From a virus: a stretch of DNA of 25,655 bases. The notes beneath the pieces were generated by a model. It made no database searches and was not told where the DNA came from. It worked only from the letters and a program-made list of their open reading frames with translations. Below, piece by piece: positions 1,581 to 22,928 of this stretch. Both the position numbers and the translations under genes were made by a program. The stretch spans positions 1 to 25,655 of the IMG/VR virus record IMGVR_UViG_3300025120_000488; one strand, given 5' to 3'. Every line of letters begins with the position of its first letter. Position 1 is the stretch's first letter.

Positions 1581-1583
1581 TTG

Positions 1584-2157: not shown

Positions 2158-4503
2158 TTATCTTGCTGTCGCTGGTGCTGCGCCGTCACCGCCAAAGGGG
2201 TTCTCTGCGAAGGCCATGTATATGTATGTACTGCCGGACGCATTCATGCCGCCGTTAGCTTGTCGCAACTTAAATCCATCGCTCAAAAAATCTAAATTGT
2301 TGTCACCTGTCAAAATGCTTTCGGCACCGCTAGAGTTCGCCTCAAGTTTATGATTAGCAACATTGAATGGATCACGCTGCGTGTCGTACATCTGCCATTC
2401 TTGGGTAGCGTTAGTTCTTTTTAGTAGGACAAAAGCGGGTTTGAATCCGGTAGATACAAAAGTACCATCTGTCGATCCATTGCCCGTGTAACCCCCGAAG
2501 CTGCTATAGCCTTCGACTTCAGCAAAGCAGTAGGCTACGTGTACCGCTGAAGCCTTGTTAACACCGTCTGTTGTGCCAATAGAAAATACGCTGCTGGTTG
2601 GGGTGGTATTTTGGAAAACTGCTTGCGTTGCTTTTGCATTTGTTAAATTTAAGTACAGATTGCCGTCATTTCCAACAGCCTCATGGTATACAATCCAGCT
2701 TTCAGTATTGGTTGTGTCTTTAATCAAAATCATCTTAGGCACTGCGCCCAGCCCATGACCTACCGTGGCGTTCGATTTTGTGCCTGTATATGTGTTGATG
2801 CTAAAGCCAGCCGTTTGGTTAACTGAAGTTGTCGTTGTATTAATTGATCCGTCAGTATTGCTGCTGCCAGCGCCGCCTTGAGTTTTCCACTGCCACGCGA
2901 CATACGTCCTACCTGAGCCGTTATAGTTAGGGTCCGTAGTGTCGAGGTCAAAGCCGTCTGCCTCAAACGTAAGCTGCGCGGTGCCATCTACATCTGCCGG
3001 ATCAGCTTTATTGGAATAAATCCGTGAGGTGGTCCCTCTAGCTACATCCCACATCACATGATTGTCGCCGTTTGATCTGGGGGCAAGCCACAAAAAATCT
3101 GGTTGAAAATCTCCTGCGTTCGCATCATTAGTGATGGCGTGTCCGCTGCTACCGTTGCCTGTGTAAAGTTGAGTGTGAAAATACTTTGAACCATCTGTGA
3201 TCGATGGTTCGGGGAGGTTCGCGGTGTTGAGTGCGTTGAAGCCGGTGGGCGGGGTGTACTCAAAACCAGACTGTCCGAAATTAAAAACAGTAACGCCCGT
3301 CTGAGCTTGAGAGTCAGCAGGAACATATTTCCCCGCTTCTTGTGAGATACTGCTGTATGCGACTCCCTGCGTTGAGTTGTTTTTAAAAAATGTTATTTCG
3401 CCATCATCGCTATTCCATGCAACGCCAATAATATCGCCGGAAGTAAATGTTGCTCCATACGAGGCCGATGTCCCACCGCTTACTTTAGCCGCGCTGCTTC
3501 GATAAATAAAATCACCTGCGCGACTACCAATTTCAGCGCCAGCAGCCGGAAGCTGGGGGTTATTAAGTATATTAGCTACACCTATGGCCTCGTTGTTTCC
3601 GCCCGTTGCAGCCGCCGTAACTTCCCAGTACCACTTGCCAGTGGTGGGCAGCGTAAAAGACGCACCTACACTGCCATGTGCCGCTGTGCTTCCTCGTGTG
3701 TAGTCGAGATTTCCGTTAGAAATTGTTCCTGACGGGACAGGAATCAATGGAGTCAACGTTGCATAGTTCTCAGTCGGAGTGTCTGTGACCTGATCGTCAG
3801 CGGCAAGGCCAGATGAGGTAAAGTCGTTACCGTTGCCGCTCTCATCGTCTCCAAGATCAGAACTATCCCTGCCGTCAATAAAGAAACCATTAGTGCCATA
3901 AGCACCGCTGTACTTCTTTGGAATCCATACGCCATCGTCGTTGGTCTCGCCAAAACTAGAAGCAGCTAACTGTGTACCGTCAACAAGCTGAATTTCAGCT
4001 ACATACGCATCAAGATAATTACTACCTTCTTTACCGATATTTTGCGCTGTATTATCATTAACATCAAAAGTAAAATCTTGAGCAACAGTAGGACCAGAAA
4101 CAAAACTAGTAACCTGAGAACCGTTAATATACAGTTTAACTCTGTCCCCAGCCGTTGAATCAGTTGTATCTACCGCAAGAACAATATGCTGCCATGCTGT
4201 GGTGTCACGAAATACCTGAGTAGTTTGAAAAATTACACTGCCATCTATTAAATATAAATTGTCGTTAGAGTCTGACCACCCAAACTCTGTACTATTAGCT
4301 TGAAGTATCCTGTATCCAGCACCTGTAGCACTTGCTAAGGTGTTAACCTTCCACCAGAAACTAAATGTCCAAGTCTTACGATTTGAAGAGCTTCCCGGTG
4401 TTCGAGTTAGATACGCGCTGTCGTTATCATTAAATCGGATCGACTGCTCAATCTCGTAGGATGCCCCAGCGTTAGCCAGCCATTGTGAGCCAAACATAGT
4501 CAT
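2158..4503 (-). CDS. Tail fibre / receptor-binding candidate with LamG-like and SPRY-like domains
   Basis: This 781-aa protein has no signal peptide. Residues ~20-190 look like a LamG/concanavalin-A type jelly roll (WTFSFWWKV, then WQHIVLAVD, then VKLYINGSQV). Residues ~288-412 look like a SPRY domain (GKWYWEV, GVAWNSDDGEITFFKN, FNFGQSGFEY). Residues ~430-781 form a repeat-bearing C-terminal module common in marine phage tail proteins; GHGLGAVPKMILIKD and STGFKPAFVLLKRTN are paired half-repeats. Both beta-sandwich types bind sugars or proteins, so host-surface recognition is plausible. The ATG at 4503 shares one base with the preceding stop (TAATG); a second in-frame ATG at 4497 is possible. 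Domain calls are by eye. Confidence 0.75.
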   Translation of the reverse strand: MTMFGSQWLANAGASYEIEQSIRFNDNDSAYLTRTPGSSSNRKTWTFSFWWKVNTLASATGAGYRILQANSTEFGWSDSNDNLYLIDGSVIFQTTQVFRDTTAWQHIVLAVDTTDSTAGDRVKLYINGSQVTSFVSGPTVAQDFTFDVNDNTAQNIGKEGSNYLDAYVAEIQLVDGTQLAASSFGETNDDGVWIPKKYSGAYGTNGFFIDGRDSSDLGDDESGNGNDFTSSGLAADDQVTDTPTENYATLTPLIPVPSGTISNGNLDYTRGSTAAHGSVGASFTLPTTGKWYWEVTAAATGGNNEAIGVANILNNPQLPAAGAEIGSRAGDFIYRSSAAKVSGGTSASYGATFTSGDIIGVAWNSDDGEITFFKNNSTQGVAYSSISQEAGKYVPADSQAQTGVTVFNFGQSGFEYTPPTGFNALNTANLPEPSITDGSKYFHTQLYTGNGSSGHAITNDANAGDFQPDFLWLAPRSNGDNHVMWDVARGTTSRIYSNKADPADVDGTAQLTFEADGFDLDTTDPNYNGSGRTYVAWQWKTQGGAGSSNTDGSINTTTTSVNQTAGFSINTYTGTKSNATVGHGLGAVPKMILIKDTTNTESWIVYHEAVGNDGNLYLNLTNAKATQAVFQNTTPTSSVFSIGTTDGVNKASAVHVAYCFAEVEGYSSFGGYTGNGSTDGTFVSTGFKPAFVLLKRTNATQEWQMYDTQRDPFNVANHKLEANSSGAESILTGDNNLDFLSDGFKLRQANGGMNASGSTYIYMAFAENPFGGDGAAPATAR

Positions 4504-5930
4504 TAGCCGAACGCCAACTGCGGTGCGCCGAGTTGAATACTGCCGGACGCTTTTACAAAGTAGGGCACAACATCAACCGCACTTGCTGCGGTGCTAAGTG
4601 TAATGCCGCCCGAAGCGGGACTTTCATAGTCCGTCCCAAGACTGAGAGTTCGAGAACCCGTCCCGTCTTGGATGAACACGAACACGCCAGCCTGACCCAC
4701 TGATTCCGTGCTTGGGTTAGCCAAGGTCACGTTACCCGTAAGAGTAAGCACAAAGTTCTGATGAGCAGAGAAGTCAATCGTTACACTGCCCGTGTTTGAC
4801 GTATCCGTATCCGTCTCTGCAAGAATAATCGTGCCACCGTTAAGCTGCCCAGCGACCGTTACATTCGTAGTGCCTGTCGGAATCTCGATGACATCTGCAT
4901 CGGCATCGTTCTTGATTGTGACATCGTTGGTCGAACCTTGGCCCGTAAGAATCAAGCCCTCCGCTGCTGTATAGCCCATTGCAGCGTTATCACCGGCAGA
5001 GGTGTCACCGTCAGCGTTTACTGTAGCGGCAGTTACGTCGCCCACAATATCAACGTCAGTGCCACCAGTAGCAACGGATAAAACCGTTGCATCAGCATCG
5101 TTAACAATCGTAACGTCATTGGTCGAGCCTTGTCCCGTTAAGATAAGGCCTAGAGCAGCCGTGTAACCTATAGCTGCGTTGTCTCCGGCAGAAGTATCCC
5201 CCGCTGGTTCGACAGTACCTGTAGCAATTAAGTTACCCCCCGCCGAAACGTTTCCTACTACCGTGACATCTGTGCCTCCAGTAGGAATCTCCAAGACATC
5301 GGCGTCGGCATCGTTTTTAATCGTAACGTCATTGGTCGAACCTTGCCCAGTAAGGATAAGCCCTTCGGCAGAAGTATAACCTATTGCAGCCTTGTCGCTG
5401 GCTGCGGTATCCCCCAAAGCATTGAGCGTACCGCTTGCGGTAACGTCTCCGGACGCGGTTAACGTGGCAATTTGCAAGTCCGATAGCGCATTTACAACTG
5501 CCGCACCGGAACCCGCGCCATCCATATAGACAACCGCCGACTTTCCGTTGGCTACGGTTATATTTGCACCGGAACCCTGCGTCAGAATTACGGAATAGGG
5601 TCCGCTAGATCCAGAATCTGTGGTGGCGTTTATGATTATGAAGAAAGCGGACGTTGTATTTGGGGCTACCGTAACCGTGTTGTTCGCTCCAAGAGCCCCC
5701 GTAAACTTTATAACACGGTACATGCCGTCCTGAAGATTTTCGGTGCCTGAACCAGGAGAAGCTTCTCGAACAGTCAGTGTATGGGTAGATCCAGAAAGCC
5801 CCACTGCTTTATAGGAGGCAATGCGGTCCAGAATATCTATGTTGTGATTCGTGGTATCTCCCCAAGCTCCGGATTGTTCTCCGGAGCCTATCTTTTCGAT
5901 ACCAAAACTTGTTGTGTATGATGATGCCAT
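4503..5930 (-). CDS. Tail fibre protein with three ~60-aa internal repeats
   Basis: This 475-aa protein opens MASSYTTSFGIEKIGSGEQ followed by SGAWGDTTNHN, an N-terminal block I remember from many marine phage fibre proteins and which probably attaches it to the tail. Residues ~173-232, 244-301 and 308-366 are three near-identical units, each with GDT-A-D-AA-GYT, LILTGQGSTNDVTI and NDADA. The C-terminal ~100 residues contain a beta-rich end (VTIDFSAHQNFVLTLTGNV) typical of fibre tips. Low-complexity Ala/Gly/Thr/Asp beta repeats suit a trimeric shaft. The ribosome-binding site AGGAATAG lies upstream, overlapping the end of the 22-aa-repeat gene. The next gene starts in its stop codon, implying coupled translation. 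Exact receptor role unknown. Confidence 0.75.
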   Translation of the reverse strand: MASSYTTSFGIEKIGSGEQSGAWGDTTNHNIDILDRIASYKAVGLSGSTHTLTVREASPGSGTENLQDGMYRVIKFTGALGANNTVTVAPNTTSAFFIIINATTDSGSSGPYSVILTQGSGANITVANGKSAVVYMDGAGSGAAVVNALSDLQIATLTASGDVTASGTLNALGDTAASDKAAIGYTSAEGLILTGQGSTNDVTIKNDADADVLEIPTGGTDVTVVGNVSAGGNLIATGTVEPAGDTSAGDNAAIGYTAALGLILTGQGSTNDVTIVNDADATVLSVATGGTDVDIVGDVTAATVNADGDTSAGDNAAMGYTAAEGLILTGQGSTNDVTIKNDADADVIEIPTGTTNVTVAGQLNGGTIILAETDTDTSNTGSVTIDFSAHQNFVLTLTGNVTLANPSTESVGQAGVFVFIQDGTGSRTLSLGTDYESPASGGITLSTAASAVDVVPYFVKASGSIQLGAPQLAFG

Positions 5931-5940
5931 AATACTATTC

Positions 5941-7248
5941 CTATGCCGCTATTTCCGTCCAATCAGGCGTTTGATCTGCGTCTATTTCTAAGAATCTTGA
6001 AGTTTGCGAGGTGTCTATAATAGTCCATATGTTTGGATTGCTTACAAGACCTTTGGCAGAAACTCCCTCAACGGTGAATGCAAAGTTAGTTTGGACAGAA
6101 CCAACTTCACTAGCCGCAGAAACTCCAGTAACACTAAATACAGTTGGAAGATCTACCGTAACCGAGCCAACCAAACTGGATGCAGAAACGCCTGCAACCG
6201 ATAGGACAGCGTTTGCTACAAGAGTAGGTAATCCTACTGCACTAGCCGCAGAAACTCCAGTAACACTAACGCTAATCCCCCCAGAAGTAGTAACCGAACC
6301 AACTTCACTGGCAGCAGATACGCCCGTAACCGTTACTACAGCCTTCCCAGAAGTAGTAACTGATCCTACTCCACTAGCTGCTGATACCCCCGTAACGCTT
6401 ACAGTAACCGGAAGATTTACCGACCCTATTCCGCTGGCTGCGGAAACGCCCGTAACCGGTAGAATAGCGTTTGTTACAAGAGAGGGTGAACCTACTCCAC
6501 TAGCCGCAGAAACGCCTGTGACACTTTGTGCTACGGGTACGATTACCGTAACAGACCCTAGCCCACTAGCCGCAGAAACGCCTGTGACACTAACACTAGT
6601 GGGAAGACTTATTGTAGCAGACCCTATTCCGCTGGCTGCGGAAACTCCCGTAACCGTTACTACAGCCTTTCCAGAAGTAGTAGCTGACCCTACCCCACTA
6701 GCAGCAGAAACACCTGTGACACTAACCACAACTCCCAGAGTAACTGAGCCAATCTCACTAGCCGCAGAAACCCCACTTGCCGTTACTACAGCCTTTCCAG
6801 AAGTAGTAACTGACCCTATTCCACTAACCGCAGAAACGCCGGTAACCGATAGAATAGAGTTTGTTACAAGGGTGGGTGACCCTATTCCGCTAGCGGCAGA
6901 TACGCCCGTGACCGCTACTACAGCCTTTCCGGAAGTAGTAACTGACCCTACCCCACCAGCAGCAGATACGCCCGTGACCGCCACTACAGCCTTTCCGGAA
7001 GTAGTAACTGACCCTACTCCACCAGCAGCAGATACGCCCGTGACCGTTAGAATAGAGTTTGTTACAAGAGAGGGTGACCCTACTCCACCAGCGGCAGAAA
7101 CGCCTGTGACACTAACACTAACCGGAAGACTTATAGTAACCGAGTCAACCGCACTGGCCGCAGAAACACCGGTAGCCTCAACGGGAATAGGACTATTCCA
7201 CGCTCCAGCGTTCCAGGTGCTTCTATTCCAGCCAGTAATTAACGCCAC
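5941..7248 (-). CDS. Repeat-built virion/tail protein (about eighteen 22-aa repeats)
   Basis: This 435-aa protein has a GTG start at 7246-7248 overlapping the previous stop by one base (TAGTG). A short leader, MALITGWNRSTWNAGAWNSP, precedes a run of tandem units GVSAASGxGSVTTSGKAVVT from residue 27 to ~405. The C-terminal 30 residues are unique and carry ISO-like Trp/Asp-rich sequence (NIWTIIDTSQ ... DWTEIAA). The pattern is a regular beta-strand/turn alternation, as in beta-solenoid or stacked beta-hairpin shafts. The unit recurs without frame slips and with two- or three-position substitutions, so it is protein-level selected rather than simple DNA slippage. Similar repeat proteins occur beside fibre genes in marine phages (from memory). 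No enzymatic motif is seen. Confidence 0.7.
   Translation of the reverse strand: MALITGWNRSTWNAGAWNSPIPVEATGVSAASAVDSVTISLPVSVSVTGVSAAGGVGSPSLVTNSILTVTGVSAAGGVGSVTTSGKAVVAVTGVSAAGGVGSVTTSGKAVVAVTGVSAASGIGSPTLVTNSILSVTGVSAVSGIGSVTTSGKAVVTASGVSAASEIGSVTLGVVVSVTGVSAASGVGSATTSGKAVVTVTGVSAASGIGSATISLPTSVSVTGVSAASGLGSVTVIVPVAQSVTGVSAASGVGSPSLVTNAILPVTGVSAASGIGSVNLPVTVSVTGVSAASGVGSVTTSGKAVVTVTGVSAASEVGSVTTSGGISVSVTGVSAASAVGLPTLVANAVLSVAGVSASSLVGSVTVDLPTVFSVTGVSAASEVGSVQTNFAFTVEGVSAKGLVSNPNIWTIIDTSQTSRFLEIDADQTPDWTEIAA
6034..7170 (-). repeat. Tandem ~66-bp coding repeat array
   Basis: Seventeen full units of 22 codons (three of them shortened to 20 codons) plus one partial unit encode the GVSA-initiated repeats of the surrounding gene. 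Sub-families alternate: units ending in TTSGKAVV, units with SPSLVTN or SPTLVTN, and units with ISLP-type centres. Some neighbouring units are nearly identical (for example the two with GVSAAGGVGSVTTSGKAVV), which suggests recent duplication. The opposite strand also stays open over the whole array, because repeated codons avoid stops in that frame. Confidence 0.9.
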
Positions 7249-7757
7249 TAGGCAATCCTGATTATCGCATTATTAGCGTCGTTTGCCGGATACTGAATCG
7301 TAAAGTCACCCGCACTGGACGACTTGTCTCCGCCAAAGTTAATTACTGCTACAGCAGGATCTGCCGCGTGATTTGTAGTAGAGCCTGTTCCAGCAGTGCC
7401 TAACGTGCTGTTATAGATCAAAGCGCCTCGCGCATCGCTGATGGTGGACGAAGAAAATGTCGTATCAGCAAAATCAACAAAAGCCGTAGGAACAGAACTA
7501 CTGTTATCCCCAAGTCCAATGGTCACACTGCCAAGAGCGGCTCCCCCAGCGGAGTAATTTGTGCCAGAAACCTCATTGCTGGTTGTGTAGCCAGTAGTGT
7601 CCGCGTCGATGGACGAACTATTGGTAAACATAGCAACCTTAAAGGTGTCCGCTGAAATAGCACTAGATCCCGTTCTCGTGTGAGCGGTCAAAAAATGTAT
7701 CCCGGCAAGTATTTCTCTTTTGAAAGTTCCGCACATTGCGGATGATCCAACAGCCAT
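7248..7757 (-). CDS. Conserved phage structural protein, unknown role
   Basis: This 169-aa protein (MAVGSSAMCGTFKREILAG ...) is rich in Ser, Thr, Ala and Asp, with no transmembrane segment and no catalytic motif. The text 'DTFKVAMFTNSSSIDADTTGY' and the later GGAALGSVTIG and VAVINFGGDKSSSAGDF blocks recall a family of marine phage virion proteins of unknown function (memory only). It has a very good ribosome-binding site (AAGGAG, 10 nt before ATG). It is followed immediately by the repeat protein through a TAGTG overlap, so it is likely made with the tail proteins. A beta-rich tail or head accessory subunit is the best guess. Confidence 0.65.
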   Translation of the reverse strand: MAVGSSAMCGTFKREILAGIHFLTAHTRTGSSAISADTFKVAMFTNSSSIDADTTGYTTSNEVSGTNYSAGGAALGSVTIGLGDNSSSVPTAFVDFADTTFSSSTISDARGALIYNSTLGTAGTGSTTNHAADPAVAVINFGGDKSSSAGDFTIQYPANDANNAIIRIA

Positions 7758-14673: not shown

Positions 14674-15141
14674 CTAAACGTGTTTAATGTCGTCGGGCTC
14701 TAGAATTGTGGCAATGACCTCATCATCGTTAATGACGCGGACCTCGCCCCCCTCAATCTTAAATCGGGATCCTGCGTATCTTCCAATACACACCCAATCG
14801 CCCTCGTTGCACCAATTGCGATCTTCATCGTCACCAAATTTAGACGAATCCTGATAAGCCAGAGGACCTACCTTTAGAACGTAGGCAACAACTGTCGCCA
14901 ACGCTTCACGATCTCTAACTGCATCAGGAATAAGGATACCACCTTCGGTGGCAGCTTTGCCCATGTAAGGCATCACAAGTAAACGCCAGCCTGTGGGCTG
15001 CGGCAGTCTCTCTTTAAGGTTCTTACTTACAAGAGAGGGGTCGAGCACTTTCTCACTTTTATCTATGTATGCAGACGATTCGGCTTTCGGGGCTTTCTGG
15101 GACTCTAGTACGTGGTCTGGAACGTATAAAGTTTTGGTCAT
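14674..15141 (-). CDS. GroES-like co-chaperonin
   Basis: This 155-aa protein carries a ~45-residue N-terminal extension, then a GroES/Cpn10-type beta barrel at residues ~49-148: PTGWRLLVMPYM, the mobile-loop-like GKAATEGGILIPDAVRDREA, ATVVAYVLKVGPLAYQD, WCNEGDWVCIGRYAGSRFKI and EVRVINDDEVIATI. GroES caps the GroEL folding cage; phage versions (T4 gp31, other marine phage forms) adapt the host GroEL to fold the capsid protein. The location immediately upstream of scaffold and capsid genes fits. The ATG overlaps the preceding stop (ATGA). The short GGIL-P motif for GroEL binding is present; the barrel is divergent from cellular GroES. Confidence 0.8.
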   Translation of the reverse strand: MTKTLYVPDHVLESQKAPKAESSAYIDKSEKVLDPSLVSKNLKERLPQPTGWRLLVMPYMGKAATEGGILIPDAVRDREALATVVAYVLKVGPLAYQDSSKFGDDEDRNWCNEGDWVCIGRYAGSRFKIEGGEVRVINDDEVIATILEPDDIKHV

Positions 15142-19328: not shown

Positions 19329-19727
19329 CTAGTTACCTTTCTTTCCACTTTCGGGATTCGGCGTGACGGCTTTTTCATAGTAAACTATAAGCTGTTTCTG
19401 CTGTTCAATAAACCGCTTTATCTCAGCCATGTTTAAGGCAAGCGTCTCGTAGTCCCTAACACTTATCGCGTAAAACAACAGATCGCCGTTCTCTTTCTCA
19501 AAACGCTGCTTAAAAGATGCAAACGTGTCCTCTGTCACAACATAGAAATGTATCTTGTTTAACGATACAGGACGAGGACGACTCTGAGTCGGTATCTTTC
19601 GCTCAACTTCTACCGTTTTAATCTCAACGGGAAGTACCTTCTTAAACTCCGCGCAGCTACTTAGCAACGGCAGGAGCGGGAGCGCCAGAAATAGCCTCCA
19701 ACGACTCAAACAGCTTAGATGTTCCAT
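19329..19727 (-). CDS. Outer-membrane spanin lipoprotein (Rz1-like, o-spanin)
   Basis: This 132-aa protein has a lipoprotein signal (MEHLSCLSRWRLFLALPLLP, then LLSSCAEFKK) with lipobox LSSC and acylated Cys25. The mature part starts with VEIKTVEVERKIPTQSRPRP, Pro-containing as in Rz1-type o-spanins, then FYVVTEDTFASFKQRFEKEN and FYAISVRDYETLALNMAEIK. The gene starts 71 nt inside the preceding membrane-anchored coiled-coil gene in another frame, the classical overlapping spanin arrangement. Spanins fuse inner and outer membranes at the last step of lysis, implying a Gram-negative host. The conserved central domain is larger than in lambda Rz1, so the assignment rests on lipobox and arrangement. 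Confidence 0.7.
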   Translation of the reverse strand: MEHLSCLSRWRLFLALPLLPLLSSCAEFKKVLPVEIKTVEVERKIPTQSRPRPVSLNKIHFYVVTEDTFASFKQRFEKENGDLLFYAISVRDYETLALNMAEIKRFIEQQKQLIVYYEKAVTPNPESGKKGN

Positions 19728-20055
19728 TGTTAATCTTCTTTTCTACCAGAAGGGGCTTTTTAAGGCTCAATTTTGCAAGATCGTGCTTACGTAGCTTACC
19801 TATCAAAACGTCTTTATAGGCGTTTGCTGCATTTATCTTGGTCTGAAGATCTTTAGTTAACTCTTCAAACTTCTCACGGTCTTCGATCATTGCATTTATC
19901 GTGTCGTCTTGAAGCTGCTTCGCTGTTTCCAGCTTTGCTGTGTTCTCTGTTAGGATGCGAATGCGATCTTGGCTATCCTTATAGTAGTAATACGCTCCGT
20001 AGGCAGAGCCGCCCACAAACCCCAGCACTAAAATTAGAAGATAGATCTTTAGCAT
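19657..20055 (-). CDS. Inner-membrane spanin (Rz-like, i-spanin)
   Basis: A 132-aa protein with an N-terminal membrane anchor (MLKIYLLILVLGFVGGSAYG) and a long periplasmic charged helix or coiled coil (SQDRIRILTENTAKLETAKQ, IEDREKFEELTKDLQTKINA). The tail has Lys, Ser and Pro (LEAISGAPAPAVAK). I chose the ATG at 20053-20055, which overlaps the preceding stop as TGATG and follows AAAGG; a GTG one codon upstream is possible. Shape, size and overlap with the lipoprotein gene fit a Rz-type i-spanin that pairs with the o-spanin across the periplasm. Confidence 0.7.
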   Translation of the reverse strand: MLKIYLLILVLGFVGGSAYGAYYYYKDSQDRIRILTENTAKLETAKQLQDDTINAMIEDREKFEELTKDLQTKINAANAYKDVLIGKLRKHDLAKLSLKKPLLVEKKINNGTSKLFESLEAISGAPAPAVAK

Positions 20056-20366
20056 CACTTACCTTTCGCCATGTAAGCGGTCATGCCCATGTAGGCACCT
20101 ACAACACCAGCCTGTCCTATGTAAAACAAGCCAAACAGGTCGCTCAAAGCTTTGATTCGAGCATCGGGAAAGATGGGTAGAAACACTGCCAGTGTAAACA
20201 CTATCATAGACCCCATAGCGACCCAGGCCATTCTGCGCTGGGCGTCTGCTTTCTCATGCTTAGACAACGCTTCAGCGGTAGCAAGTTCTGCATCCGAGAC
20301 CACACCATCGCCATCTAAATCTAGATCGTTATAGACGCTGCCCTTTTCTAATTTTTTCTGTGCCAT
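20055..20366 (-). CDS. EF-hand plus two-TM holin-like protein
   Basis: A 103-aa protein with a canonical 12-residue EF-hand calcium loop at residues 16-27 (D16, D18, D20, S24, E27), then a charged linker (EKADAQRRMAW) and two hydrophobic segments: residues ~47-67 (WVAMGSMIVFTLAVFLPIF) and ~76-98 (DLFGLFYIGQAGVVGAYMGM). The two-TM layout before the spanins suits a class II holin, which triggers lysis by permeabilising the inner membrane. The N-terminal loop would face the cytoplasm if both ends are inside. Similar EF-hand membrane proteins occur in marine phages (memory). Calcium binding and holin activity are untested inference. Confidence 0.65.
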   Translation of the reverse strand: MAQKKLEKGSVYNDLDLDGDGVVSDAELATAEALSKHEKADAQRRMAWVAMGSMIVFTLAVFLPIFPDARIKALSDLFGLFYIGQAGVVGAYMGMTAYMAKGK

Positions 20367-20367
20367 T

Positions 20368-20901
20368 TTAGTTCCTCAGTAAGGGGTTATCCAAAGCCCT
20401 TTGGAGTTTCTTGTCCTGACGCTTTTCAAAAGCGTCTAGTTTTGAGTCAATACCGTTTATTTTAGCGTCAAAACGCGCCGATGCCGAAGAAACAATGTCG
20501 CGAATTGTCTTTTCGGCCTGTCTCAACGACTCTCTTGTCTCTGCGTCCAGCGTTCGAGAACGTTTATCCACGCCAGAGAGGCCGGAATACAGTTTAGTAG
20601 CATCATCGCGCACATCTTGTCGTGTATCGCGCACAATTTCTTGTATTTCCTGCGTTCTGTCCCTTAAAGAAGACATTTCTCCGTCCAAAACTACCATCTT
20701 TTCATTCAAAACGGCTAGTTTTTTGTCAAATCCGCTCAAATCAGGTGCGGAATACGACGAAATCTTCTTTTTCATGTCCATGTAGTCCTTGTAGACCTCA
20801 AAAGCGCCGTACAAGCCACCAACCAGCGTAGATAACGCCAGAAATACGGCTACCATCTTGCCGCCTTTGAATTTCACACCTGCAAATTCAATTTCAGCCA
20901 T
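20368..20901 (-). CDS. Membrane-anchored coiled-coil protein (177 aa)
   Basis: The N-terminus is MAEIEFAGVKFKGGKMVAVF, leading into one hydrophobic segment (residues ~16-35, VAVFLALSTLVGGLYGAF). The remaining ~140 residues are a charged helix with heptad-like spacing (DKKLAVLNEKMVVLDGEMSS, LRDRTQEIQEIVRDTRQDVR, QAEKTIRDIVSSASARFDAK). Topology resembles a second i-spanin-like or membrane-tethered structural protein. It lies between the exported Pro-rich protein gene and the holin-like gene, with stop/start spacing of a single base on each side. No enzymatic motif. Role in envelope disruption is a guess. Confidence 0.65.
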   Translation of the reverse strand: MAEIEFAGVKFKGGKMVAVFLALSTLVGGLYGAFEVYKDYMDMKKKISSYSAPDLSGFDKKLAVLNEKMVVLDGEMSSLRDRTQEIQEIVRDTRQDVRDDATKLYSGLSGVDKRSRTLDAETRESLRQAEKTIRDIVSSASARFDAKINGIDSKLDAFEKRQDKKLQRALDNPLLRN

Positions 20902-20902
20902 A

Positions 20903-22231
20903 TCAACGTTTCCAATCCAGATCTACAAGAGCATTGTGCGCTCCGTTTGATCTGCCAAACAGAGTATAATTCTGCATCCGGTCAACCATAGAAGGCCCAT
21001 CTGGAACTTTTGTTCCTGTAAAGAACCCTGGTGTATCTACCAATGCCGTTGGCGCCACGATTTTAGGCGATATCATGCCCATAGCCACCATAGTGGTGGT
21101 TTGAGACGCTGCTGAGTATCTCTGAGACGGAGCTATCTTTGCAACAGCCTTTTCAGCCGCCGCTTTAACCTTTTCCTGTCGGCTCTTGGGCTTTGGAGGA
21201 GCTTGCGCCTCTCTAGTCTCTGCCGGAGGTTCCGCCGAAGGCTCCGGCTCTGGTTCGGGCTCAGAGGGCTGGGACTCTGGCTGCGCTTCTGCTGGCTGTC
21301 CCTCTGGTTCAGGCTCTCCTTCAGAAGACTGCTCTGGTTCTGGTTCAGGCTCTCGTGCGCGAGGCTGCTCTACAGAAGGAGGCGCTATGTCCTGTTCTAT
21401 TTGAGCCTCAATGGTTGCTTCAGCTTGTGATTCCTGTTGCCGCTGTTCCATTGGAGGTGGGGGCAGATCAATCTGGATTGGCACAATCTCCGGAGGGGGA
21501 GGTGGCTCAGACGGAGCTTGCGGAGCAACGGCAACAACGATGGGGGCCGCTGCTGGCGGTGGCGGTAAGTCAACTGGAGGAGGAGGAAGGTTAATCTGAA
21601 CCGGAGGCGCAGCCGCTATAACGTCGTTCTGTACGATCTGATCTAAAATCTGCTGCTCTACAACCTGTTCATGCGTAAACGTCAGGCTGGGATCAGAAAA
21701 CTTTGGACCAAAGAACCCGGAATGAAACCCCGCGTCTATCCCAAATAGAGAGAAGCTTCCCGTCAAAATTCCAAAGTCGTTCTCCGCCATCGTGTCCGAG
21801 AACGAAAACAGTCTCCCCCCAGTAAAATCTAACTCCACTTCGTGAGTAAACTTCTTCGCTACGGTTTCCCCGCTCAAAAGCGTGATGCCTAACGTAAAAA
21901 GATCGCGGCAGTCCCCCACTTGCGTAACGCTCGTGCATGTAGCACGCCTAGCGTTACTCGGATGACTGTCCACGGTAACCGCGCTGTTGAGGGTAAAGCC
22001 TCTGCGAACCTCGTCCTCGGTCAAGGGGACATCAAACGTGCTTGTATAAGTTCCGCCACCCGCCGTAGCGTTACCTGTACAAAACTCTCCGGCAGTGCAT
22101 CCAGATGTCGAACTCGAAGTCGTTGAGCCACTCGTCGTAAACGCAGACAGATTTGGAAGGACATTGCTCGTCGTTACAGTTTCCGCCAACGCAGAAGACG
22201 ACATAAGCAGGAATGCAATAAGCCAACGCAT
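20903..22231 (-). CDS. Exported Pro/Glu-rich protein (442 aa)
   Basis: I start this at the ATG 22229-22231 (MRWLIAFLLMSSSALAET), which overlaps the preceding stop as TGATG and gives a clear signal peptide. An ATG at 22249 adds MVRKRL, a basic n-region, and is possible. Residues ~17-205 form a beta-rich part with four Cys (about 45, 51, 99, 108) and 'HEVELDFTGGRLFSFSDTMA ... NDFGILTGSFSLFGIDAGFH'. Residues ~209-346 are low complexity: PPPP clusters and then (EP)n-type repeats. A basic segment (KPKSRQEKVKAAAEKAV) and a compact tail end it. Long Pro/Glu stretches can span the periplasm, as in TonB. Conserved in marine phages by memory; function unknown. Confidence 0.7.
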   Translation of the reverse strand: MRWLIAFLLMSSSALAETVTTSNVLPNLSAFTTSGSTTSSSTSGCTAGEFCTGNATAGGGTYTSTFDVPLTEDEVRRGFTLNSAVTVDSHPSNARRATCTSVTQVGDCRDLFTLGITLLSGETVAKKFTHEVELDFTGGRLFSFSDTMAENDFGILTGSFSLFGIDAGFHSGFFGPKFSDPSLTFTHEQVVEQQILDQIVQNDVIAAAPPVQINLPPPPVDLPPPPAAAPIVVAVAPQAPSEPPPPPEIVPIQIDLPPPPMEQRQQESQAEATIEAQIEQDIAPPSVEQPRAREPEPEPEQSSEGEPEPEGQPAEAQPESQPSEPEPEPEPSAEPPAETREAQAPPKPKSRQEKVKAAAEKAVAKIAPSQRYSAASQTTTMVAMGMISPKIVAPTALVDTPGFFTGTKVPDGPSMVDRMQNYTLFGRSNGAHNALVDLDWKR

Positions 22232-22764
22232 CAATCGCTTCCGTACCATTCTTCTTGGTCGGGCCAATCCTGTTGAGGTTGAGGCTGAGAAGATACCGTT
22301 TCCGCTTTTACCTGCAACCGCACAATAGAACCTTCCGGCGCCTTCTTCGGGTTCTTGATCCATTCCTGTCTCGCCGCGTCCCCAATCTTGCCCATAAACG
22401 GACAAGGCGTCCCAGCCATCCAAAGACCGTCAAATACACGAACCTCCTGGCAAAGGATGCTAATGCCGGCAACCTTCAACCCCATACCAAACACAGACCT
22501 TGCCAGCTTGATCCTCTCGCAGTTCAAGTCTCGAGTGGTTGTGCCACCAGACACACCAAAAAGACCAGTTTGCAAAGCGCCACTGGTTCCAACTTGACAG
22601 ATGTCGTTATTGTTAACGACTATCGAAGGGCTGGACGCCGTAGGAGGCGTCTTGTCTACTACCGTTGAACTGCTGACCGTGGCACTTGTTACAGTGTCCG
22701 CCGCATTAGCTGTCACGGTAGACAGAACTAACGCAAATGCGACTAGCCCAATCCACCGTGACAT
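22231..22764 (-). CDS. Exported four-Cys protein (177 aa)
   Basis: An N-terminal signal peptide (MSRWIGLVAFALVLSTVTAN, cleavage likely after Ala21 or Ala22) precedes a Ser/Thr/Val-rich stretch and a compact domain with four Cys (56, 82, 105, 121): NNNDICQVGTSGALQTGLFG, LNCERIKLARSVFGMGLKVA, ILCQEVRVFDGLWMAGTPCP. A Gln/Pro-rich tail (VSSQPQPQQDWPDQEEWYGS) ends it. The Cys content fits oxidation in the periplasm. Its stop overlaps the start of the other exported gene, so they are probably partners. I do not recognise the family; lysis, envelope modification or exclusion are all possible. Confidence 0.65.
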   Translation of the reverse strand: MSRWIGLVAFALVLSTVTANAADTVTSATVSSSTVVDKTPPTASSPSIVVNNNDICQVGTSGALQTGLFGVSGGTTTRDLNCERIKLARSVFGMGLKVAGISILCQEVRVFDGLWMAGTPCPFMGKIGDAARQEWIKNPKKAPEGSIVRLQVKAETVSSQPQPQQDWPDQEEWYGSD

Positions 22765-22766
22765 AA

Positions 22767-22928
22767 CTAGATAACGCCTTTTTCCTTCAGTAGGAAACCG
22801 GCAGCGCCGCCAACAATGCCAATAATGATGACAACGGGCTGGCTGATAAGAACGCCAATTCCTACAACTCCACCGCCAAGAGCGGCATAACTGGAAGGCT
22901 CTTTCATTCGACTAAGGATCCAATTCAC
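22767..22928 (-). CDS. Small Gly-rich membrane peptide (53 aa)
   Basis: A GTG start at 22926-22928 follows a very good ribosome-binding site (AGGAGATTCCC) that overlaps the terminase stop. The peptide is VNWILSRMKEPSSYAALGGG, then VVGIGVLISQPVVIIIGIVG and GAAGFLLKEKGVI. It has one long or two short hydrophobic helices (about residues 14-46) between basic ends. The stop lies 2 nt before the next start. Small Gly-rich two-helix membrane proteins in this slot may be holins or antiholins; the sequence alone cannot tell. Confidence 0.7.
   Translation of the reverse strand: MNWILSRMKEPSSYAALGGGVVGIGVLISQPVVIIIGIVGGAAGFLLKEKGVI

Follow-up and report, generated by a model that had tools for sequence, protein, structure and literature searches.

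The two exported four-Cys proteins A and B belong to a cassette of three to four genes, A-B-C and often D, that is common to many marine phages. The cassette is best read as mobile between phages, and we tentatively propose, at a little short of an even chance, that A, B and C form a late envelope complex, most likely aiding the breach of the outer layers at lysis. The window, i.e. the whole stretch of DNA analysed here, is the entire linear IMG/VR record IMGVR_UViG_3300025120_000488 of 25,655 bases and is therefore a fragment. In the available parts of the literature on these phages, which cover auxiliary genes and phage-borne curli, the cassette was not found. Within those parts the A-B-C-D gene set appears to be previously undescribed, an absence that is not proof.

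Gene order and predicted proteins of the window

The genes lie on the minus strand in the order terminase, P7, A, B, C, D, Rz, Rz1 and portal (Table 1). Spacing from P7 to D is only -1 to 3 bases. The initial annotation had described signal peptides and four Cys in both A and B, and this was borne out: both are real, tightly packed genes. For B, a TTG start at 22423 in the mechanical ORF list made the frame too long and was rejected in favor of the ATG that overlaps the stop of A. The portal and adaptor fit SU10-type models by profile match. The region 19329-20058 is predicted from sequence to encode an Rz/Rz1 spanin pair, consisting of an Rz-like protein and an overlapping lipoprotein Rz1, so that the spanin-like genes seen in the initial annotation gained family support. 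Its holin-like genes fared less well. The shape of D fits this description, but D matches phrog_27150, to which no function is assigned there, and P7 matched holin phrog_20 at E 0.89 only. P7 is 98% identical to its counterpart in contig G001. CRP207_gp72 is a homologue of D, the D family comprises 32 ORFs located mostly two genes 3' of B, and the cassette has D-type genes alongside it in CRP-207 as well as in the window's group.

Two further features were observed in the window. A GroES-type co-chaperonin gene (PF00166, phrog_3188) is located amid the head genes at 14674-15141, and the adjacent late genes at 5941-7248 and 4503-5930 are made of repeats (VTGVSAASGVGSV units and GDTSAGDNAAIGYTAALGLILTGQGSTNDVTI units, respectively). 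The repeats at 5941-7248 also give a 416-aa open frame on the opposite strand at 6011-7261.

Table 1. Coordinates of the cassette, neighboring genes and protein segments in the window.
Feature	Position	Strand	Basis or remark
Terminase	24398-22938	-	precedes P7
P7, 53-aa hydrophobic protein, GTG start	22767..22928	-	conserved upstream of A or before Rz
A, exported four-Cys protein, 177 aa	22231..22764	-	real gene; signal MSRWIGLVAFALVLSTVTANA; Cys 56/82/105/121
B, exported, 442 aa, four Cys	20903..22231	-	signal MRWLIAFLLMSSSALA; ATG overlaps A stop
B residues 16-190, predicted beta-sandwich, Fbs1/CBM-like	21662..22186	-	AF2 and fold search
B residues 208-350 (about), Pro, Glu-Pro-rich	21182..21610	-	mostly low AF2 confidence (disordered)
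B residues 351-442, basic helix and conserved C-terminal segment (SNGAHNALVDLDW)	20906..21181	-	predicted helix 351-366
C, N-terminal membrane helix, APDLSG motif, coiled coil, C-terminal NPL	20368..20901	-	sequence features
NPL motif of C	20380..20388	-	in 10/10 aligned named-phage C proteins
D, EF-hand-like motif and two hydrophobic helices	20055..20366	-	holin-like in shape only
Rz-like i-spanin	19657..20058	-	phrog_739 Rz-like, E 1.7e-13
Rz1-like o-spanin lipoprotein	19329..19727	-	phrog_812 Rz-like, E 1.2e-11; lipobox LSSC; 71-base Rz overlap
Portal	19325-16929	-	after Rz1
Tail-gene junction	1581..1583		between tail-fibre-assembly gene (1584-2243) and next tail gene (3-1580)

Protein A has 272 tblastn-confirmed relatives in IMG/VR, and at least 598 were found by profile. 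The Cys gaps of 25-22-15 were retained in 202 of 219 A sequences, and the four Cys probably form two disulfides. In the AF2 model a hairpin between Cys56 and Cys82 was predicted with moderate confidence (about 71-80), while residues 80-159 were confidently helical. The residues between Cys56 and Cys82 show some alternation of hydrophobic and small side chains, yet a membrane-inserting hairpin is a suggestion only, because the confidence of the hairpin is moderate. A fold search of A against the PDB returned no match, a second fold comparison spanned only a small part of the protein, and the sequences of A and B gave nothing solid in the PDB. The structural relatives of A in BFVD were uncharacterised proteins. 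A matches phrog_20531 (E 1e-08), as does A of HTVC023P (E 2.8e-18), but this PHROG carries no function and no recorded link to B or C. A lipobox-like leader was detected by regex in 2 of 190 A proteins. Long Asn-Thr repeats in some A proteins, and Cys-rich repeats of the type CSxNPLYDxxCxGYxxAYxxQQC in B* partners, were observed at L067, L068, L078 and L061, L064. A weak, more distant relative of A was found in Achromobacter phage phiAxp-2 (L337:44598-45155), where the A-like exported Cys protein is encoded on the strand opposite to the adjoining late genes; this protein could lead to a culturable host.

The long Pro and Glu-Pro stretch followed by a basic helix, also noted initially, was confirmed in B. 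The N-terminal region that the initial annotation had singled out for a fold search gave a well-defined model at residues 16-190, with AF2 means over 10-residue blocks mostly above 90 and lower values near residues 90-110; beyond the Pro/Glu region the model has only a few helices. The best fold match was 1umh, the Fbs1 domain that recognises sugars (Z 14.8, rmsd 3.1 Å, 148 aligned residues), and Z was about 11 for the modules of CBM16 and CBM61. On the basis of this model, B 16-190 is predicted to be a beta-sandwich of the carbohydrate-binding module or FBA type, suggesting putative sugar binding and a fold unlike that of a hydrolase. The likeness to the Fbs1/FBA domain and to CBM families 16, 61 and 4 is one of fold; identity is about 16%, and in B the domain is part of an exported phage protein with a Pro/Glu tether. 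The relative S28C10_57 had a weak CBM_4_9 match (E 0.0089).

The sequence of C comprises a hydrophobic N-terminal helix and then a coiled-coil-like region of variable length, and NPL was followed by 0-5 residues to the end in all ten aligned C proteins. No spanin PHROG was matched by C in the PHROGs search. Two annotated lysozymes, CRP-810 gp51 ('lysozyme', L115:6204-6626) and CRP-207 gp73 ('putative lysozyme', L132:3292-3873), are C-type membrane coiled-coil proteins ending in NPL, and these labels look wrong.

Distribution of the cassette and its linkage to endolysin genes

A search of named phages located A in the Pelagibacter phages HTVC115P, HTVC023P, HTVC202P, HTVC033P, Baldr and the T4-like Mosig, as well as in roseophages CRP-207 and CRP-810, Autographivirus S28C10 and two Manatee Spring phages. 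Most of these phages have a B-type gene after A and a C-type gene after that. An NPL-ending C-type ORF was present within 4 kb of A in 115 of the 118 loci on fetched contigs with at least 4 kb downstream, while such an ending occurred in 167 of 10,391 ORFs overall, mostly the C genes themselves. A and B, and B and C, usually abut or overlap. The N-terminal part of the B* variants bears no relation to that of the window's B, and the gene retains its position between A and C. A host origin of the cassette was considered and rejected: all copies from the scan of bacterial genomes lie in metagenome bins or single-cell contigs and are probably phage sequence.

The position of the cassette varies between phage genomes and is often after the tail fibre genes. 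Since sugar-binding folds are also common in tail proteins, A, B and C could belong to the particle as structural or receptor-related proteins, i.e. virion or adhesin parts. We consider this improbable, because A and B carry Sec signal peptides, C has a predicted membrane anchor, and the cassette is common to podo-, myo- and autographivirus types whose tails are unrelated.

The initial annotation had found no recognised peptidoglycan hydrolase in the module, and the Pfam scan of the window genes agreed. None was detected among the listed module and structural-region genes, a set that leaves out the partial gene 3-1580, and PF00959 was absent from the whole 25,655-base record, itself a fragment. 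It had been suggested that either the endolysin is elsewhere or one of the two proteins is a novel envelope-active protein. The latter may still apply to A and B, now as members of a conserved cassette that adjoins the endolysin in several phage groups. Relatives of the window support the former for the system as a whole. A PF00959 phage lysozyme was found directly after Rz1 in L020 (E 2.6e-05), L027 (E 3.2e-08), L028 (E 6e-06), L091 (E 0.0047) and L098 (E 2e-07), and only the L091 match falls below the curated cut-off. In close relatives A-B-C-D-(P7)-Rz-Rz1-lysozyme forms a single run. Since the run continues into a phage lysozyme, the system is not endolysin-free. In L027, L028 and L037 a tail-fibre-assembly gene and the tail gene after it flank the block from A-B-C-D to the lysozyme. 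The window has these two genes side by side, and its lysozyme-free block is located between terminase and portal.

Other arrangements were also found. The A and B proteins of G001 are 91-93% identical to those of the window, and an M15 peptidase (E 2e-21) is encoded upstream of Rz/Rz1 on this possibly chimeric contig. In G001 (L121-L123, IMGVR_UViG_3300030061_000976) the A-B region occurs twice with 92% DNA identity, one copy is near a podovirus-type portal, and siphovirus-type tail genes are located elsewhere; the contig may be a chimeric assembly or a true transfer between phage types. In G002 the cassette is about 18 kb from a lysozyme, which adjoins a GTA-type holin. LYZ or M15 families were present in 38 of 114 well-covered loci. 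Among the named phages, an endolysin was found within 2.3 kb of A in three, and the nearest recognised one is at least 10 kb away in HTVC115P, HTVC202P, Baldr and S28C10. In the rest it was either unrecognised, as in Mosig, CRP-207 and CRP-810, or present only as a domain in a 740-aa frame. The cassette is linked to spanins and endolysin in many phages, not in all.

These observations also bear on the proposal that A or B is a new peptidoglycan hydrolase replacing the endolysin. The absence of a hydrolase from the window agrees with it, but relatives carry the cassette together with a lysozyme, M15 peptidase or amidase, the B domain has a predicted sugar-binding fold, and neither A nor B matched a hydrolase family in Pfam, PHROGs or NCBIfam. 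A hydrolase role is therefore not supported, and we regard it as very improbable.

Exchange of the cassette in HTVC023P-type pelagiphages

The locus of HTVC023P has the order PurM-A-B-(gp47)-C-M15. In its sister HTVC027P the same place is occupied by PurM-(gp12)-X13-X14-gp15-gp16-M15, where X13 has a membrane helix and a coiled coil and X14 is exported with four Cys. On fetched contigs with PurM and M15 at most 8 kb apart, this slot contained X13 and X14 in 19 loci, A in 8, neither in 1 and both in 0; the loci were collected via A or X14, which under-counts 'neither', and related genomes are non-independent, while the zero for 'both' is unaffected. Six loci which apparently had both A and X14 were single A genes matched through the leader. 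Some A and X14 proteins share a nearly identical leader while their mature parts are not related, consistent with a swap at a single locus. Homology of A and X14 was considered and rejected, since the first profile match (51%) was to the signal peptide and the mature parts alone gave a probability of 0.3%. In Skadi-1, X13-X14 is about 0.7 kb from the M15 gene (M15-to-X14 distance).

A permissive lipobox scan of HTVC023P, 027P, 033P, Baldr and 202P gave no plausible o-spanin. The scan covered 60.0 of the 60.9 kb of HTVC023P and recovers three known genes (window Rz1, T7 18.7 and lambda Rz1), while a stricter regex recovers 1 of 21 Rz1. In several HTVC023P-type contigs a lipoprotein-like gene of 51-56 aa (family 36, LSACSVGKKC; L160, L164, L165, L184 and others) adjoins A and could be an o-spanin candidate.

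The main rival to a lysis role is superinfection exclusion or surface masking, in which the exported proteins would cover or modify the infected cell's envelope and block binding or injection by later phages, with the variable B domain recognising host glycans. Exported disulfide proteins serve in superinfection exclusion, for example T4 Spackle. The cassette is facultative, being present in HTVC023P and replaced in HTVC027P, it moves around genomes, and the N-terminal domain of B is swapped for unrelated domains in B* with its operon position retained; this facultative and swappable nature fits exclusion nearly as well as a lysis role. However, many phages have the cassette in a lysis run beside Rz/Rz1 and endolysin, and the PHROG links to exclusion proteins are weak (E 0.01) and located on signal-peptide regions. 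We judge exclusion rather unlikely.

A possible late envelope complex

The lysis reading is preferred because C follows A, the cassette is linked to endolysin, the slot is exchanged in pelagiphages, no plausible o-spanin was found in five of them, and B has its predicted fold. In the proposed complex, C would provide the inner-membrane anchor and a periplasmic coiled coil. The exported B would contribute a sugar-binding beta-sandwich, attached through a long Pro/Glu tether, and a conserved tail segment, and A, a small protein that is likewise exported, would add four Cys at invariant spacing. Together they may span the inner membrane, the wall and the outer membrane. Acting late, after a normal endolysin has cut the wall, they would help to breach or destabilise the outer layers. 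Pelagiphages apparently without spanins would use them instead, and in the window's group they would work alongside Rz/Rz1. Several observations count against a lysis role. The window phage already has Rz/Rz1, leaving a second outer-membrane step there unexplained, A and B of the window lack a lipobox, and the endolysin is distant or unrecognised in seven named phages. The lengths of B and C did not rise jointly (Spearman -0.22) and therefore do not point to a shared reach across the periplasm.

The closest known systems are the two-component spanins, such as lambda Rz/Rz1 and T7 18.5/18.7, whose combination of an inner-membrane protein having a periplasmic coiled coil with exported partners is also predicted for the cassette; like the cassette, they are often in the lysis region near the endolysin. 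An o-spanin is a lipoprotein with a lipobox, whereas the signals of the window's A and B are of the cleavable type and carry no lipobox, therefore no classical outer-membrane anchor is present, and the window's A-B-C set contains no outer-membrane lipoprotein. The cassette also adds a putative sugar-binding subunit and a four-Cys exported protein, and the window has a true Rz/Rz1 pair in addition. A unimolecular spanin combines an N-terminal lipobox and a C-terminal membrane helix in one protein (PMC6139136), and neither A nor B has an N-terminal lipobox. A phage-borne curli pore (CsgG/CsgF) in pelagimyophages and Melnitz has been proposed to act in lysis (PMC9004378). It resembles the cassette in being an exported multi-gene set of marine phages, found across phage families and with a suspected lysis role. 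The proteins are different, and A, B and C had no curli family match in the general family scans.

A more specific proposal, which we consider unlikely at present, treats A-B-C and the X13-X14 pair replacing it as a third outer-membrane disruption system that is related neither to the two-component nor to the unimolecular spanins. Here an inner-membrane coiled coil, a tethered glycan-binding protein and a disulfide protein would open the outer membrane of marine bacteria including SAR11. In a survey of 677 phages about 13% lacked an identifiable spanin, and the existence of another outer-membrane route was posed as an open question (PMC6139136). At stake is how pelagiphages open the outer membrane, given that no plausible lipoprotein spanin was found in five of their genomes. 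If the outer-membrane role is true, the cassette would add a route to outer-membrane disruption, a possibility raised in that survey.
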